Below the pieces are notes generated by a model. That model saw only the letters and a program-made list of their open reading frames with translations. It did not search any database and had not been told where the DNA came from. A stretch of 64,000 nucleotides of DNA from Bacteroides sp. (GTDB taxonomy: Bacteria > Bacteroidota > Bacteroidia > Bacteroidales > Bacteroidaceae). Both the position numbers and the translations under genes were made by a program. Where the stretch lies: assembly GCA_017471925.1 (NCBI GenBank), contig JAFURM010000029.1, forward strand, positions 1 through 64,000, given 5' to 3'. Positions 17,103 through 21,877 of this stretch are shown piece after piece (position 1 is the stretch's first letter; each line of letters starts with the position of its first letter).

Positions 17103-17213
17103 AGTCTTTTATTTGAATGATAGCGGTTTTGAGCATTTAAAATTTCTTATTTGTTCAAGTTTCGCAAGCAAAGCTTGCTCAGGAGTTAAAGTCCAAGTTC
17201 GCAAAACTTTTGC

Positions 17214-17221
17214 TATATTTG
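17214..17221 (+). promoter_or_regulatory. -7 box (TATATTTG) for the sirtuin gene
   Basis: Exact TAnnTTTG on the plus strand, 26 bp before the ATG at 17248. A small hairpin GCAAGC-AAA-GCTTGC lies at 17164-17178, about 36 bp upstream of the box. Confidence 0.55.
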
Positions 17222-17247
17222 CGGCTCATCCTCATTACTTGTACATT

Positions 17248-17952
17248 ATGAAGAAGAATTTAGTTGTATTGACCGGAGCCGGCATGAGTGCCGAGAGCGG
17301 AATCAGCACGTTCCGTGATGCCGGCGGCCTGTGGGACAAGTATCCCGTGGAACAGGTGGCTACCCCCGAGGGGTATGCCCGTAATCCCCAGCTGGTGCTG
17401 GACTTCTACAACGAGCGGCGCAGGCAACTGCTCACGGTGGAGCCGAATGAAGGCCATCGCGGCGTGGCCCGATGGGAGGAACACTTCAACGTCAGTGTCG
17501 TCACCCAGAACGTGGACAACCTGCACGAGCGTGCCGGCAGCACCTCTGTGCTCCATCTGCATGGCGAGCTCACCAAGGTCTGCTCCTCCTTCTCGCCCAA
17601 CGACCCGCGCTACATCAAGGAGCTGCGCCCCGAGGAGTACACCGTGAAGATGGGCGACCTGGCCGGTGACGGCAGTCAGCTGCGCCCCTATATCGTCTGG
17701 TTCGGTGAGGCCGTGCCCGCCATAGAGTCTGCCATCAAGCTCGTGGAGCAGGCAGACATCCTGGTCATCATCGGCACTTCGCTCAACGTCTATCCTGCTG
17801 CCGGACTGCTGCACTATGCGCCGGCCGCCGCCCCCGTCTACCTCATTGACCCCAAGCCCGTGAATACCGGCACCGACCGCCCCGTGCGTGCCATCCGTGC
17901 CGGCGCCTCCGAGGGAGTGCGTCTTCTTACGGAAGAGTTGCTGAGGGGATAG
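17248..17952 (+). CDS. cobB: Sirtuin, NAD-dependent protein deacylase (class III, CobB/SIRT5-like)
   Basis: A 234-residue cytosolic enzyme. I start it at 17248, after the promoter box; the frame is open further upstream but has no sirtuin features there. The NAD-binding motif GAGMSAESGISTFRD, the QNVDNLHERAG motif and the catalytic His in HLHGEL are intact. The Tyr-x-x-Arg pair in FYNERRRQL is the signature of class III enzymes that remove succinyl or malonyl groups. The zinc-binding module looks degenerate: between HGELT and WFGEAVP I see one Cys instead of the usual four. It is a single gene facing away from the FKBP pair. Specificity is inferred from motifs. Confidence 0.93.
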   Translation: MKKNLVVLTGAGMSAESGISTFRDAGGLWDKYPVEQVATPEGYARNPQLVLDFYNERRRQLLTVEPNEGHRGVARWEEHFNVSVVTQNVDNLHERAGSTSVLHLHGELTKVCSSFSPNDPRYIKELRPEEYTVKMGDLAGDGSQLRPYIVWFGEAVPAIESAIKLVEQADILVIIGTSLNVYPAAGLLHYAPAAAPVYLIDPKPVNTGTDRPVRAIRAGASEGVRLLTEELLRG

Positions 17953-17954
17953 CA

Positions 17955-17990
17955 CAAAAAACCGTTCCGGCCTTCACAGGTCAGAACGGT
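17955..17990 (-). terminator. Intrinsic terminator of the candidate small RNA
   Basis: On the minus strand ACCGTTCTGACC pairs with GGCCGGAACGGT (one mismatch, one wobble) and is followed by TTTTTTG. It is placed to end a minus-strand transcript and also lies just past the plus-strand sirtuin stop. Confidence 0.85.
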
Positions 17991-18200
17991 CCAAGTCAAT
18001 AATACATGAAAAAACGCTATTTAGAGAGAGTTTCTACTTGTTCCTTTTAATGAGGATTTTTTCACCGGTAAAGGTAAGTCAGACTTGTGACTTCACCAAA
18101 CAGAATCGGCGAACTGCCTCTTTTTGTCGACGAGCCCTTCGGTTCCGACCTCCGACGTCTGTCGTATGCAGGCCAGTGGGGCAGGTAGCATCAACTTTTC
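17955..18200 (-). ncRNA. Candidate small RNA, about 245 nt, with own promoter and terminator
   Basis: The 335-bp gap between the sirtuin and permease genes holds a minus-strand unit with a full promoter (TTTC-N19-TAACTTTG, 18205-18235) and a strong intrinsic terminator (17955-17990). No plausible reading frame lies between. The predicted RNA folds locally: AAGTCA pairs with TGACTT around a 6-nt loop, TTCGCC pairs with GGTGAA, and CTGCC...GGCAG closes an arm holding GTCG/CGAC and GAG/CTC pairs. I checked it by eye against the conserved cores of tmRNA, RNase P RNA and SRP RNA and saw none. It could be a Bacteroidales small RNA already catalogued in Rfam; that needs a covariance search. Confidence 0.6.
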
Positions 18201-18204
18201 GGGG

Positions 18205-18235
18205 CAAAGTTATTGAAAAAATGCAAATAATGAAA
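18205..18235 (-). promoter_or_regulatory. Promoter of the candidate small RNA
   Basis: TTTC, 19-bp spacer and TAACTTTG on the minus strand. It lies downstream of the permease stop (18288) and no minus-strand gene follows before the terminator at 17955-17990. Confidence 0.65.
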
Positions 18236-18287
18236 TAAAAAGAGAGAAAAGTGTGGCGAATGGGACTAAAAAACGTTTTTTTCTGCA

Positions 18288-19514
18288 CTATCGCAACCTT
18301 TTGCAGAGATAGCCCACCGGATAGCGCACGGCAATGAAGCCCACGGCCACCACCGTGGCGAGGACGAGCAGGAGGTCGACGGCATGCACGCTCACGGGGT
18401 AGGCGTCTACCACGAAGGCTCCGTTGCCCCCTCCCAGACTAATCAGGCCGAACTCTTGCTGCAGGAAGCAGAGCAGCAGGCCCAGCAGGATGCCGATGAC
18501 GGCTCCCGAGAGACAGATGAGCCGCCCTTCGTAGAGGAAGATGCGCACAATCAGTTTCTCGTCGGCACCCAGTTTGCGCAGGGTGGCAGTGTCTTCCCGC
18601 TTGTCCAGGATGAGCATGGAGAGCGAGCCGATGACGTTGAAGCAGGCCACGGTCAGGATGAAGGTGAGGAAGAGGTAGGAGATGAGCTTCTCTATCTCCA
18701 TGATGCGGAACACGTCGGCTTGTTGCTCATAGCGGTCCATCACCCTGAAGTCCGCCCCCAACATGTCGGCAATCTTCTCCTTGGTCCGGCCGGTGTCGCT
18801 GCCGGGCTTCAGCTTCAGCTCGATGGCCGTCACCTCGTGTTCATATTCAAAGAGCCGCCGGGCCAGGGAGAGCGGGGCGATGATGTAGCGGGAGTCGTAC
18901 TTCTGCTGGTTCACCACGAACACCACGCCCGGCGAGAAGAGGTATTCCCGATTGAAGGAGGCCGAGGGGTTGGAGAGGTTGACCCGCGCCAGCCGTCTGG
19001 GGGCGTAGACCTGCAGCGGGTCGATGAACTGCAGGCCGGTGCCCAATTCGGATATCAGGTCGATGCCCACAATGCCGTAGTCCACCACCGAGTCGTTCAG
19101 CACATACTTGCCGGCACCATAGAGCAGGCTGTCGATGGAGGCGAGCTGCCTGAAGTTCTCCTCCACCCCCTTGATGACGGCCACGGTCTGTCGGTTTTTG
19201 TACTGCACCATGGCGTTCTCCTCCAGCGTGGCCGACCAGATGGCAATCTCGGGCAGTGCCCTGACCGCTTCGAAGCGTTCCTCCCGAGGGTCGAACACCT
19301 TCCCTTCGCGGGGCAGAATCTTCAGTTCGGGGTCGAAGGCGGTGAAGAATCCGGCCACCATCTCCTGGAAACCGTTGAAGACGGAGAGCGTGCACACCAT
19401 GGCCAGTGTGGCCAGTGCCACTCCGCAGACCGACACGCCCGAGATGATGTTGATGGCGTTGTGCTTCTTCGGTGCGAAGAGGTAGCGGCGGGCGATGTAG
19501 AAGGGGAGGTTCAT
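18288..19514 (-). CDS. LolC/LolE-type ABC transporter permease (FtsX family)
   Basis: A 408-residue inner-membrane protein. The N-terminus NLPFYIARRYLFAPKKHNAINIIS followed by a membrane segment is typical of LolC/E permeases; a large periplasmic domain (about residues 50-270) follows, then three membrane segments with KREDTATLRKLGADEK between the first two. It would work with a LolD-type ATPase to release lipoproteins from the inner membrane. A candidate LolD is encoded at 52837-53490, in another operon. It follows rbfA by 29 bp and probably shares its promoter. Confidence 0.88.
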   Translation of the reverse strand: MNLPFYIARRYLFAPKKHNAINIISGVSVCGVALATLAMVCTLSVFNGFQEMVAGFFTAFDPELKILPREGKVFDPREERFEAVRALPEIAIWSATLEENAMVQYKNRQTVAVIKGVEENFRQLASIDSLLYGAGKYVLNDSVVDYGIVGIDLISELGTGLQFIDPLQVYAPRRLARVNLSNPSASFNREYLFSPGVVFVVNQQKYDSRYIIAPLSLARRLFEYEHEVTAIELKLKPGSDTGRTKEKIADMLGADFRVMDRYEQQADVFRIMEIEKLISYLFLTFILTVACFNVIGSLSMLILDKREDTATLRKLGADEKLIVRIFLYEGRLICLSGAVIGILLGLLLCFLQQEFGLISLGGGNGAFVVDAYPVSVHAVDLLLVLATVVAVGFIAVRYPVGYLCKRLR

Positions 19515-19923: not shown

Positions 19924-19973
19924 CGAAGTTCACCGCAATCAGGCAACAGAGAGAGGGCTTTTTTGAGGCGTTT

Positions 19974-20061
19974 GGACGGGACATGTGCGGTGCGTGGACG
20001 AGACATGTGTGGTCCGCGGACGAAACATGTGTGGTCCACGCACCACTCATGTATGGTCCAA
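19974..20061. repeat. Four degenerate 22-bp tandem repeats with ACATGT core
   Basis: Units start at 19974, 19996, 20018 and 20040. The consensus is close to GGACGAGACATGTGTGGTCC plus two bases; the fourth unit is most diverged. They fill the gap between the sulfatase stop (20066) and the rbfA promoter. The ACATGT core is palindromic. Confidence 0.8.
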
Positions 20062-20065
20062 ACGG

Positions 20066-21877
20066 CTAAAAGGTCCCCTGTTTCAGGTAGTCCAGACGAA
20101 TGATCTGGTCGGAAATGTCGTAGGCTTTTTTCAGGCGCTCCACCTCGGCGGAGTCGTGGGCTTCGCTGCCTTCGGTGTTCAGCTGCGAGCCTACGGCCAC
20201 ATCCTTCCGGCCGGGATGGAAGAGGCTGGTGCCGAGGCCGGTCCATCGGTAGCTGTCTAACTGCAGCAGGTTCAGCAGGGTGGGATAGAGGTCAATCTGT
20301 CCCAAGACCTGTTCGTAGCGCAGGCCCACGGGAGCGTTCACCACGATGAAGGGTGTGAAGGGCTTGCTTGAGACGATGCCCTGTGCAGCCTTCTCCTTCA
20401 GGAGCGTTTCGCGCTGCGAGGCCAGTCCCTCGTGGTCGCCGGTGATGACGATGAGCGTCTCGTCATAGTCGGGGCGTGACTTCAGGTAGTCAATGAAGCG
20501 TCCGATGGCCCGGTCGGTGTAGTTGGCCACGGTCATGTAGTCGGCCATCAGGGTGGGAATCTCCGGCGGGAAGGAGAGGCGCTTCAGCTCGTCGGGCATC
20601 TTCCAGGGCGCATGGCCGGAGTAGGTGACAAACTGCAGGAGAGCATGTTCGCCCGGTTGCCAGATTTCGCCCCGCTCCATCTTCTGCCGGCATTGGTCGA
20701 AGAAAGCGCCGTCGCCCACCCGCTTGTGGGTGCCGAAGGCTTCGGTCAGCTCAAAGTCCTGATAGGCCAGGATGGTGTCTGTGCCGAAACGCTGTGCAAT
20801 GACTCCCTGGTTCCAGGTGGAGAGTTTGTCTATGGTGAGCAGGTAGTTGCGCGAGCCTTTCTGTTCGTGCATGGCCTTCTGCAGCGTGAGGTAGGTGTGG
20901 TCGGGATATTGGCTGCTGTAGGTCCCGCTGTTCACGGGCAGCAGTCCGGCCAACACGAGCAGCTGTGCGTCGATGCTTCGTCCGCCCTTCACCTGTGTCA
21001 GTACGTTGGGCGCGTAGAGCGTGCTCTCCTCCCTGAGCAAGCGGTTCAGGCAAGGGGTGATTTCCTGTCCCTCCACCTCCCGTTCCAGCACCCAGCTCTC
21101 TAATGACTCGGCCAGGATGAGGACGAGACTGTTGCGCGTGGCCGACGGCGGCAGGCTGTCTATGGGCAGATGTTCGGGAATGGCTTCCAGGTGTTGTTCA
21201 ATCTCTTGCCGGGCTTCGGGCGTCAGCGTCTCGTCGCTGCTGATGAGGTCATAGTAGAGCGAACCGAAGAGTGTGTATATCGTGCTGCCAGCGGAACTGG
21301 TGTAGGCCCCTTGCCTCACCCGGTCATAGGCGTTGCGGAAGCCGCCCTTCACGCTGTTCATCAGGCAGAGCACCGCAATGGCTGCCGTCAGCGTGCCCCA
21401 GTAGCAGACACCCGGCCTCTGCCAGCGCGGCAGTTGCCGGCTGTAGCCTCCTTCCGTCTTGCCCGCACGGTCTGAGTAGGGAGAGACGCGGAGACGGTAG
21501 AGCAGGGCCGTAACGATGGTGGAGAGCGGGAACAAGAGGTCGCACCAGCGCAGGGAGTCCCACACGCTGCCCGTGAAGTCGGCCAGATTGCCCGACAGGG
21601 CATAGCTGCTCAGGGGAATGGCACTGTAGTAGGTGCGGAAGTACATCAGGTTGGCCACCAACAGGGCATCCAGCAGCAACATCACCACCACCTCCGTCTT
21701 CCACAGGCGGAACAGGCAGACGGGTGCCGCCAGTAGCAGTGCGGCAATCAGCTTGGTGACCCAGAACTCCACGGTGGAGAACGAGGTGAAAGTCGTGGGG
21801 ATGGCCCAGATGACATCAAAGATGAGAAACTTCAGAAACAGTGCAGAGGTGAACAGCAGGAGGGTCTCTTTCTTCAT
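20066..21877 (-). CDS. LTA synthase family sulfatase-like membrane transferase
   Basis: A 603-residue protein with five predicted membrane segments in the first 190 residues, then a soluble alkaline-phosphatase-superfamily domain facing the periplasm. Within it NSLVLILAESLESWVLE holds the first metal-binding Glu, QVKGGRSIDAQLL the Ser/Thr-type nucleophile region, and IVITGDHEG the late Asp-His metal ligands. The family includes lipoteichoic acid synthase and phosphoethanolamine or phosphoglycerol transferases; here a Gram-negative envelope glycan or lipid is the likely acceptor, such as periplasmic glucans or lipid A. Single gene with its own -7 box at 21911-21918. Confidence 0.88.
   Translation of the reverse strand: MKKETLLLFTSALFLKFLIFDVIWAIPTTFTSFSTVEFWVTKLIAALLLAAPVCLFRLWKTEVVVMLLLDALLVANLMYFRTYYSAIPLSSYALSGNLADFTGSVWDSLRWCDLLFPLSTIVTALLYRLRVSPYSDRAGKTEGGYSRQLPRWQRPGVCYWGTLTAAIAVLCLMNSVKGGFRNAYDRVRQGAYTSSAGSTIYTLFGSLYYDLISSDETLTPEARQEIEQHLEAIPEHLPIDSLPPSATRNSLVLILAESLESWVLEREVEGQEITPCLNRLLREESTLYAPNVLTQVKGGRSIDAQLLVLAGLLPVNSGTYSSQYPDHTYLTLQKAMHEQKGSRNYLLTIDKLSTWNQGVIAQRFGTDTILAYQDFELTEAFGTHKRVGDGAFFDQCRQKMERGEIWQPGEHALLQFVTYSGHAPWKMPDELKRLSFPPEIPTLMADYMTVANYTDRAIGRFIDYLKSRPDYDETLIVITGDHEGLASQRETLLKEKAAQGIVSSKPFTPFIVVNAPVGLRYEQVLGQIDLYPTLLNLLQLDSYRWTGLGTSLFHPGRKDVAVGSQLNTEGSEAHDSAEVERLKKAYDISDQIIRLDYLKQGTF

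Follow-up and report, generated by a model that had tools for sequence, protein, structure and literature searches.

The stretch of DNA analyzed here, called the window, is 64,000 nucleotides of a Bacteroides genome. It contains a gap of 335 bp between two protein genes (17953-18287, as had been stated in a preliminary description), and on the minus strand of this gap lies a free-standing sRNA gene. The gene has a nearly invariant core, a terminator with covarying pairs, and a conserved promoter and operator. Comparison between genomes strongly supports this reading, which upholds the earlier proposal of a free-standing minus-strand RNA gene. The features are collected in Table 1.

The gap is flanked by a gene which we take, from its sequence, to encode a sirtuin-type NAD-dependent deacetylase, and by one presumably encoding a LolC/E-type permease. 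Because the former is on the plus strand and the latter on the minus strand, the flanking genes are convergent. The permease gene and the adjoining rbfA-like gene are neighbors of the sRNA in many relatives. The placement of the sRNA at this pair varies, which suggests past local rearrangement: it either follows the permease gene in the same orientation (the window's case) or is divergent from rbfA. At the upstream end of the rbfA-like frame, the window also carries an imperfect palindrome of 136 bp (19949-20084), with two 68-nt arms that are 75% complementary and no loop.

A scan of the window for tRNA and tmRNA genes found nothing at the gap and a single tRNA-Met elsewhere. A search of Rfam with covariance models, which had been recommended, matched no family at the gathering score to the gap, nor to the window locus together with seven further sRNA loci, in release 15, which may not include a FopS model.

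Table 1. Coordinates of the predicted sRNA gene, its control elements, and the neighboring genes.
Feature	Position	Strand	Remarks
sRNA gene	17956..18064, about 109 nt	-	Ends predicted from the -7 box (5') and the U-run (3')
Variable 5' leader, short hairpin-forming stretch (UCCU...AGGA)	18032..18064	-	
Nearly invariant core ACTCTCTCTAAATAGCGTTTTTTCATGTATTATTGAC, putative seed and putative protein-binding region	17995..18031	-	
Intrinsic terminator hairpin and U-run (six T)	17956..17992	-	Compensatory changes, fold
-7 element TACCTTTA, near-perfect, conserved (proximal) promoter	18069..18076	-	End of top matrix match
-33 element TTTG	18097..18100	-	N20 spacing also seen by eye in several relatives
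Operator repeat 2 GCCGATTCT, 21 bp from repeat 1	18102..18110	-	Diverged from GTMGATTT consensus
Operator repeat 1 GTCGACAAA, LytTR-type direct repeat (predicted)	18123..18131	-	-55 from -7 box start, position as in relatives
Distal promoter-like sequence TTTC-N19-TAACTTTG, preliminary description	18205..18235	-	Matrix score -7.9
Sirtuin-type NAD-dependent deacetylase gene (presumed)	17113..17952, provisional start	+	Convergent neighbor
LolC/E-type permease gene (presumed)	18288..19514, stop at 18288	-	sRNA directly downstream

Promoter and Operator

Boxes of the form TAnnTTTG are common in the window, where they occur 33 times (15 on the plus strand and 18 on the minus strand). The promoter of the RNA can be recognized by comparing loci. 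A search with up to six mismatches to the core gave 59 rows, from which two chance matches (L173 and L189) were removed, leaving 57 distinct loci with the window included. A perfect box lies within 260 nt of the core in 48 of the 57, mostly 20-80 nt away. The perfect box of the window is 180 nt from the core. The near-perfect TACCTTTA is 44 nt from it, as part of a proximal promoter TTTG-N20-TACCTTTA at 18100-18069.

When 47 loci are aligned on the box, two direct repeats appear, GTCGAT-AAA and GTMGATTT. They are 21 bp apart, and the -33 element follows right after them; of the 47 loci, 30 have the first word and 27 the second. The half-sites were also scored in 45 loci (without the window) whose perfect box is located 18-115 nt from the core: both are at most one letter off the consensus in 30, as compared with a mean of 0.007 and a maximum of 1 in single-letter shuffles, a contrast that is inflated by related loci and uses a consensus read off the same loci. 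A matrix of promoter and operator was then built from 22 of the 45, again without the window. Its top match in the 64 kb is at 18069-18134 on the minus strand, with a score of 34.4, and the next match scores 8.3. The second half-site and the -7 box of the window deviate from the consensus.

In published LytTR sites, direct repeats of 9 bp, separated in most cases by 12 bp, immediately precede the -35 (here -33) element of the regulated promoter, and the letters of the repeats usually differ between systems (PMC6193735). The two repeats described above share this geometry in length (9 bp), spacer (12 bp), direct orientation, and position right before the promoter; repeat 2 is diverged in the window. 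Their sequence differs from that of the published sites, and LytTR binding is predicted here from the geometry.

The promoter originally proposed, TTTC-N19-TAACTTTG, is present at 18235-18205, but it is not the conserved one, scoring -7.9 as compared with 34.4. Because the top matrix match lies at 18069-18134 and the distal box reaches only this low score, the promoter is placed there, with a predicted start near 18064. The conserved promoter is thus 136 nt downstream of the proposed one, and the expected size of the RNA shrinks from about 245 nt to about 109 nt. A structured RNA of about 245-250 nt could still start near 18200, from a distal promoter, and be made instead of the short form or together with it. 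Such an RNA would begin behind a good TAnnTTTG box (18205-18212), its 251-nt sequence folds modestly better than shuffles (z = -2.3), and in four relatives (L067, L071, L080, and L081) the nearest perfect box is 101-201 nt from the core. However, the distal box has no operator, and the region 18045-18200 shows no conservation by blastn beyond short scattered matches. We therefore consider the long RNA unlikely.

Self-complementary blocks had also been named as part of the structure. All of them exist (AAGTCA/TGACTT at 18093/18081, TTCGCC/GGTGAA at 18113/18097, and CTGCC/GGCAG at 18184/18118), and TGACTT and GGTGAA have second copies in the gap, at 17998 and 18066. All the pairs are located upstream of the predicted start, and they were not confirmed as conserved structure. 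The predicted 109-nt RNA folds into a 5' stem against the U-tract plus the terminator (z = -2.5).

Distribution and Conservation of the RNA

When the whole gap was compared by blastn with 61 related genomes, 15 had matches, the window's own included. In 12 of the other matching genomes, the similarity covers the 3' end of the gap as read on the minus strand, and all other places matched over 25-46 bases. A 96-nt query from this 3' end matches 61 of 158 genomes of the genus, at one place each. A covariance model of 55 distinct sequences finds the same 61 genomes at E 5.2e-9 or better. The next place is at 1.6e-5; of the weak matches that follow, 32 were examined, and most proved to be other terminators whose loop is similar. 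Among 301 genomes of the family, representing 30 genera, just five match at E 1e-5, all in the RNA's own genus and none in the 29 others.

Scanning one genome per species for an exact 32-nt match gave 50 loci, labeled Bacteroides, Mediterranea, Caecibacteroides, and Bacteroidaceae or Prevotellaceae bacterium. The same exact scan found none in viral contigs. Loci L044-L093 are uninformative on invariance because they were picked by an exact match to the core. An unbiased count is provided by searching all 158 genus genomes with the 34-nt 3' part of the core (17995-18028), allowing up to three mismatches. This part is exact in 55 of the 61 carriers and has one mismatch in one more (G123), and the reversed sequence has no match in the same genomes under the same threshold. 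Five carriers are missed (G025, G097, G118, G142, and G168). The core of G025 has an inserted base, and G142 and G097 have diverged or partial copies, which are strong matches of the covariance model (L143 and L144, respectively).

Outside the core, sequences vary. The flanking sequence is diverged in the alignment of the 55 distinct sequences, and leader sequences differ between loci. A leader hairpin of at least 5 bp is possible in 22 of 41 leaders, several of them near-copies of each other, as compared with a mean of 3.1 and a maximum of 8 in shuffles. The window's leader is among the 41 and not among the 22, having a shorter hairpin.

The hairpin with six T that the preliminary description reported is found at 17992-17956, although a generic terminator scan did not call it. 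Compensatory changes in relatives, proposed as a check, occur in this hairpin, where all 13 of 13 pairs have changes on both sides, and not in or just before the core, where the pairs given by RNAalifold have zero double changes. In the terminator, 93.7% of cells are paired, against 76.9% when shuffled, and sliding the partners abolishes the signal; because related rows inflate the contrast with shuffles, reliance is placed on the 131 double-changed cells and the sliding control. The RNA had been called structured. Its conserved part consists of a core without covarying pairs and one terminator hairpin.

The conserved block can also be read as a small protein on the plus strand, beginning MKKRYLER, with the terminator being incidental: the complement of the core reads ATGAAAAAACGCTATTTAGAGAGAG. 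Such a protein is hardly credible, as the third positions of its codons are invariant too, indels within the core of L013 and L143 break the frame, and promoter, operator, and terminator are all oriented the opposite way. Read-through from the permease gene, which is on the same strand and directly upstream, might make the RNA merely a trailer or terminator of that gene. In many relatives, however, the RNA is located divergently upstream of the rbfA-like gene or has no permease match near it, and it keeps its own promoter there, so that this reading is very improbable as well.

Probable Parent Gene and Second Core

At several loci, the core is preceded, at a distance of no more than about 35 nt, by the end of a reading frame for a small secreted protein. 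The protein is DUF4890: PF16231 is above its cut-off in three of four proteins and just below it in the fourth. DUF4890 may be Spy/CpxP-like, as judged by sub-threshold matches. Against LTXXQ, the proteins score 15.3-17.2 bits, where the cut-off is 24.3; the match to Spy is also below threshold, and the structure model is weak. The start of DUF4890 is preceded by two repeats and a box as in the sRNA promoter. In relatives with such an intact frame in front, the conserved RNA lies close behind the stop codon and ends in a terminator, which is the arrangement of a 3' UTR-derived sRNA.

Different stages of this arrangement can be found. Intact DUF4890 frames precede the core in L045, L054, L053, L073, L082, L013, and G134. 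The frame is frameshifted in L057 (B. oleiciplenus) and partly deleted in L080 (B. stercorirosoris) and L067. In L086 and L158 it is gone, yet the operator, box, and core are kept. Culturable carriers include B. cellulosilyticus, with the frame in front, and B. clarus and Mediterranea massiliensis, without it. Overall, a trace of DUF4890 directly upstream is seen in 10 of 57 loci and is absent in 47, three of which had under 600 nt upstream to inspect. The window has no DUF4890 frame before the RNA, and its genome has no DUF4890 match at E 1e-6. In a tree of the LytTR gene described below, comprising 20 of the 24 genomes searched for the operator, branches with good support require the label "frame absent" to have changed at least twice; G084, without the frame, groups with G134 and G064, in which it is intact.

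A diverged core, AACAGCGTTTGTTTTTCATAATTTTTTAGTGAATG, is found at the 3' end of DUF4890, before its own terminator, in genomes outside the 61. This core is called type II, and that of the window type I. Type II occurs once each in 16 of the 158 genomes, none of them among the 61 carriers. DUF4890 precedes it in 10 of the 16 (intact in eight, with stops in G001, and with the last part in another frame in G096), and the other six lack it in front and have no DUF4890 match in the genome. Two weak matches of the type I model, L149 and L154, are type II RNAs. Sequence resembling AGCGTTT...TTTTCAT aligns between the two types, and because of this alignment, their common operator, and their gene context, they appear to be homologous. 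Rfam had no fitting family for eight type II loci at E 0.1. In L227 and L238, a type II RNA without a frame in front has a terminator that seems damaged, and the RNA may be decaying there too.

DUF4890 was found in 49 of the 158 genomes. In 12 of the 61 carriers (G007, G061, G078, G079, G082, G094, G120, G143, G145, G147, G164, and G168), it matches away from the RNA, so separation or duplication, and not loss alone, must be allowed. Six of these loci were fetched (G007, G061, G079, G094, G120, and G164); the core is behind the frame in none, and the operator is in front in five. Among 30 DUF4890 loci, the best of the places listed, 29 have the operator within 200 nt upstream at up to three mismatches (13 exact, nine with one mismatch), so that the operator is tied to the DUF4890 gene no less firmly than to the RNA. 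Behind the frame, the 30 loci have a type I core in seven cases (one with an inserted base), a type II core in nine, and neither in 14. These counts include the five loci that gave no parse in the survey of 3' ends in which type II was recognized.

Judging by these sequences, then, the protein and the RNA stand apart in some carriers, each under its own copy of the operator. Splitting is a likely route besides loss of the reading frame, and duplication with complementary loss would explain the separation. The survey of DUF4890 loci strengthens the case that the operator is shared and makes it less likely that plain loss was the sole route.

Another conserved element was observed at 3' ends. 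It consists of ACTTTGTTTAGTTGTATTTGTATTTGTGGTT and a terminator, mostly after a frame whose end resembles ATGATGGGNCARGG (L126, L127, L129, L130, L133-L135, L138, L139, L141, L142, L147, L148, and L150-L152). It is a candidate for a second family of 3' UTR-derived sRNAs, and Rfam has no match for L126 and L134. A conserved block like TATAGCCCTCTTAAAAGGCTATTATAAATTTTGTCGTTTTCCCGTC, also with a terminator, is present in several species (L123-L125 and L128, the last diverged); Rfam has no match for L123 and L128.

Possible Regulator, Function, and Origin

A candidate regulator is suggested by other occurrences of the operator. Its pattern, allowing at most one mismatch, has matches in all of the 24 genomes searched. 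Only exact matches are used, because the reversed control also gives many. They are found at the DUF4890/sRNA locus in 12 genomes and at four places elsewhere. Three of the four (in G071, G074, and G178) occupy the same orthologous position: they immediately follow a LytTR response-regulator gene and precede a second sRNA. This sRNA is BTnc049 (Rfam RF04179; scored in G071 and G178), and a histidine kinase is encoded beside the LytTR gene in the same two genomes. The fourth precedes a 115-aa protein (L241) that is above the LTXXQ cut-off, at 26.3 bits.

With up to three mismatches, the operator is present in 24 of 37 distinct BTnc049 promoters among the loci retrieved, as compared with 0.2 in shuffles, and 13 of the 37 are without it. 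By blastn, 107 of the 158 genomes contain sequence resembling BTnc049, in some cases matched over a short length only. The window's genome has the LytTR regulator, at 87% identity (G000:C34), and a BTnc049 of 102.4 bits, before which the operator is not recognizable (seven mismatches). BTnc049 lies on contig C34 of this genome (L289 and L312) about 140 bases from the RNase P RNA. In BTnc049 promoters (L270-L319), recognizable operators start mostly 55-56 or 65-66 bp before the -7 box, so that the offset between lineages corresponds to a shift of about one helical turn.

BTnc049 is, like the new RNA, an sRNA that has a primary-sigma promoter and that carries this operator in many species. Unlike it, BTnc049 has another RNA sequence, is encoded beside the LytTR regulator, and is not linked to DUF4890. 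A LytTR two-component system, BTnc049, the new sRNA, and Spy-like proteins form a candidate regulon. To our knowledge, few Bacteroides sRNAs have a known regulator.

The nearest parallel in organization is CpxQ of Enterobacterales, an sRNA that originates in the cpxP 3' UTR and reduces Skp as well as inner-membrane proteins (PMC4817254, PMC9438474). In both cases, an RNA is located at the 3' end of the mRNA of a small secreted stress-type protein, has a two-component-type operator, and has an exceptionally conserved 3' end. The likeness drawn here is one of organization. There are differences: in Bacteroides the site is LytTR-type, not CpxR, and the protein is DUF4890, not CpxP. Here, moreover, 47 of 57 loci have no reading frame in front. 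Among the Bacteroides sRNAs FopS and GibS, FopS resembles the new RNA in having a single-stranded 5' part and a terminator, and it is described as repressing at start codons (PMC11697453). FopS has 12-15 copies per genome, whereas the window's sRNA has one. An identity with FopS was set aside on this copy number and not on sequence (one place per genome in the 61 genomes and in the 16 with type II).

Taken together, the RNA is probably under a LytTR system and involved in envelope stress. We find it fairly probable, as a whole explanation, that it is a single-copy, free-standing sRNA which came from the 3' UTR of the DUF4890 gene, is controlled by LytTR, and acts by base-pairing like CpxQ. The best reading is a stress-induced sRNA, CpxQ-like in action, that would work independently of its parent protein. 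The ancestral unit would have consisted of the tandem operator, a primary-sigma promoter, the DUF4890 frame, the RNA core, and the terminator. Since the frame is gone in the window's genome, the ancestral operator and promoter would drive the RNA alone.

The mechanism can be divided into four inferred steps, given in order of falling confidence. First, and with most confidence, transcription would run from about 18064 to 17956. Second, the LytTR two-component regulator, encoded beside BTnc049 in the window's genome, would act through the two direct repeats. Third, the core would pair with mRNAs, most likely at the start codons of envelope proteins, and repress them; the sensing of envelope stress would thereby be coupled to lower synthesis of envelope proteins, as with CpxQ in E. 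coli. Fourth, and with least confidence, cleavage near the stop codon would release the RNA where the frame persists in front.

The start codons of the third step are a guess from complementarity, because the target tests are negative. The core contains UUUUUUCAU, the complement of AUGAAAAAA, which is a frequent start of signal peptides. Near-complements of TACATGAAAAAACGCT (up to two mismatches, 14 genomes) are found at 77 places, of which 14 are the RNA gene itself; the other 63 compare with 66 in the reversed control. For AATACATGAAAAAACGCTAT (up to three mismatches, 158 genomes), the RNA gene is the only place in the window's genome among the matches listed. When the type I core is paired with 49 start regions of the window, 70 of 200 shuffled cores are as strong, and the start regions pair more weakly than mid-gene stretches (-10.9 vs -11.5). 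The type II core, tested against the same 49 regions of a genome that itself has no type II RNA, is equaled by 5 of 200 shuffles.

The negative tests leave room for a role in protein binding or as a sponge. The partner of the core may be another sRNA or an RNA-binding protein, for example RbpB, and the RNA would then titrate this partner. The invariant stretch exceeds what a seed needs, and in B. thetaiotaomicron, RbpB is described as binding noncoding RNAs preferentially where they are single-stranded (PMC11697453). On the other hand, CpxQ, the best known analogue, has an exceptionally conserved 3' end as well and yet pairs with mRNAs (PMC9438474). A sponge is possible but doubtful, and base-pairing with mRNAs is the action we prefer.

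We lean slightly towards a broader reading, in which Bacteroides independently evolved a two-armed envelope-stress gene, with a protein and an RNA arm like cpxP/cpxQ, under the control of LytTR, and the two arms came apart more than once. In several lineages, the frame would have decayed, been cut out, or stayed elsewhere under its own copy of the operator, and the operator, promoter, core, and terminator of the RNA would have stayed under strong selection.

If this is true, sRNA genes can be born from mRNAs by losing or splitting off the coding half. The stages from gene to sRNA (frame intact, frameshifted, partly deleted, and gone) are available in sequenced species, including B. cellulosilyticus, B. 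oleiciplenus, B. stercorirosoris, and B. clarus. In those species, the birth of intergenic sRNA genes from 3' UTRs by loss of the reading frame would be directly testable.
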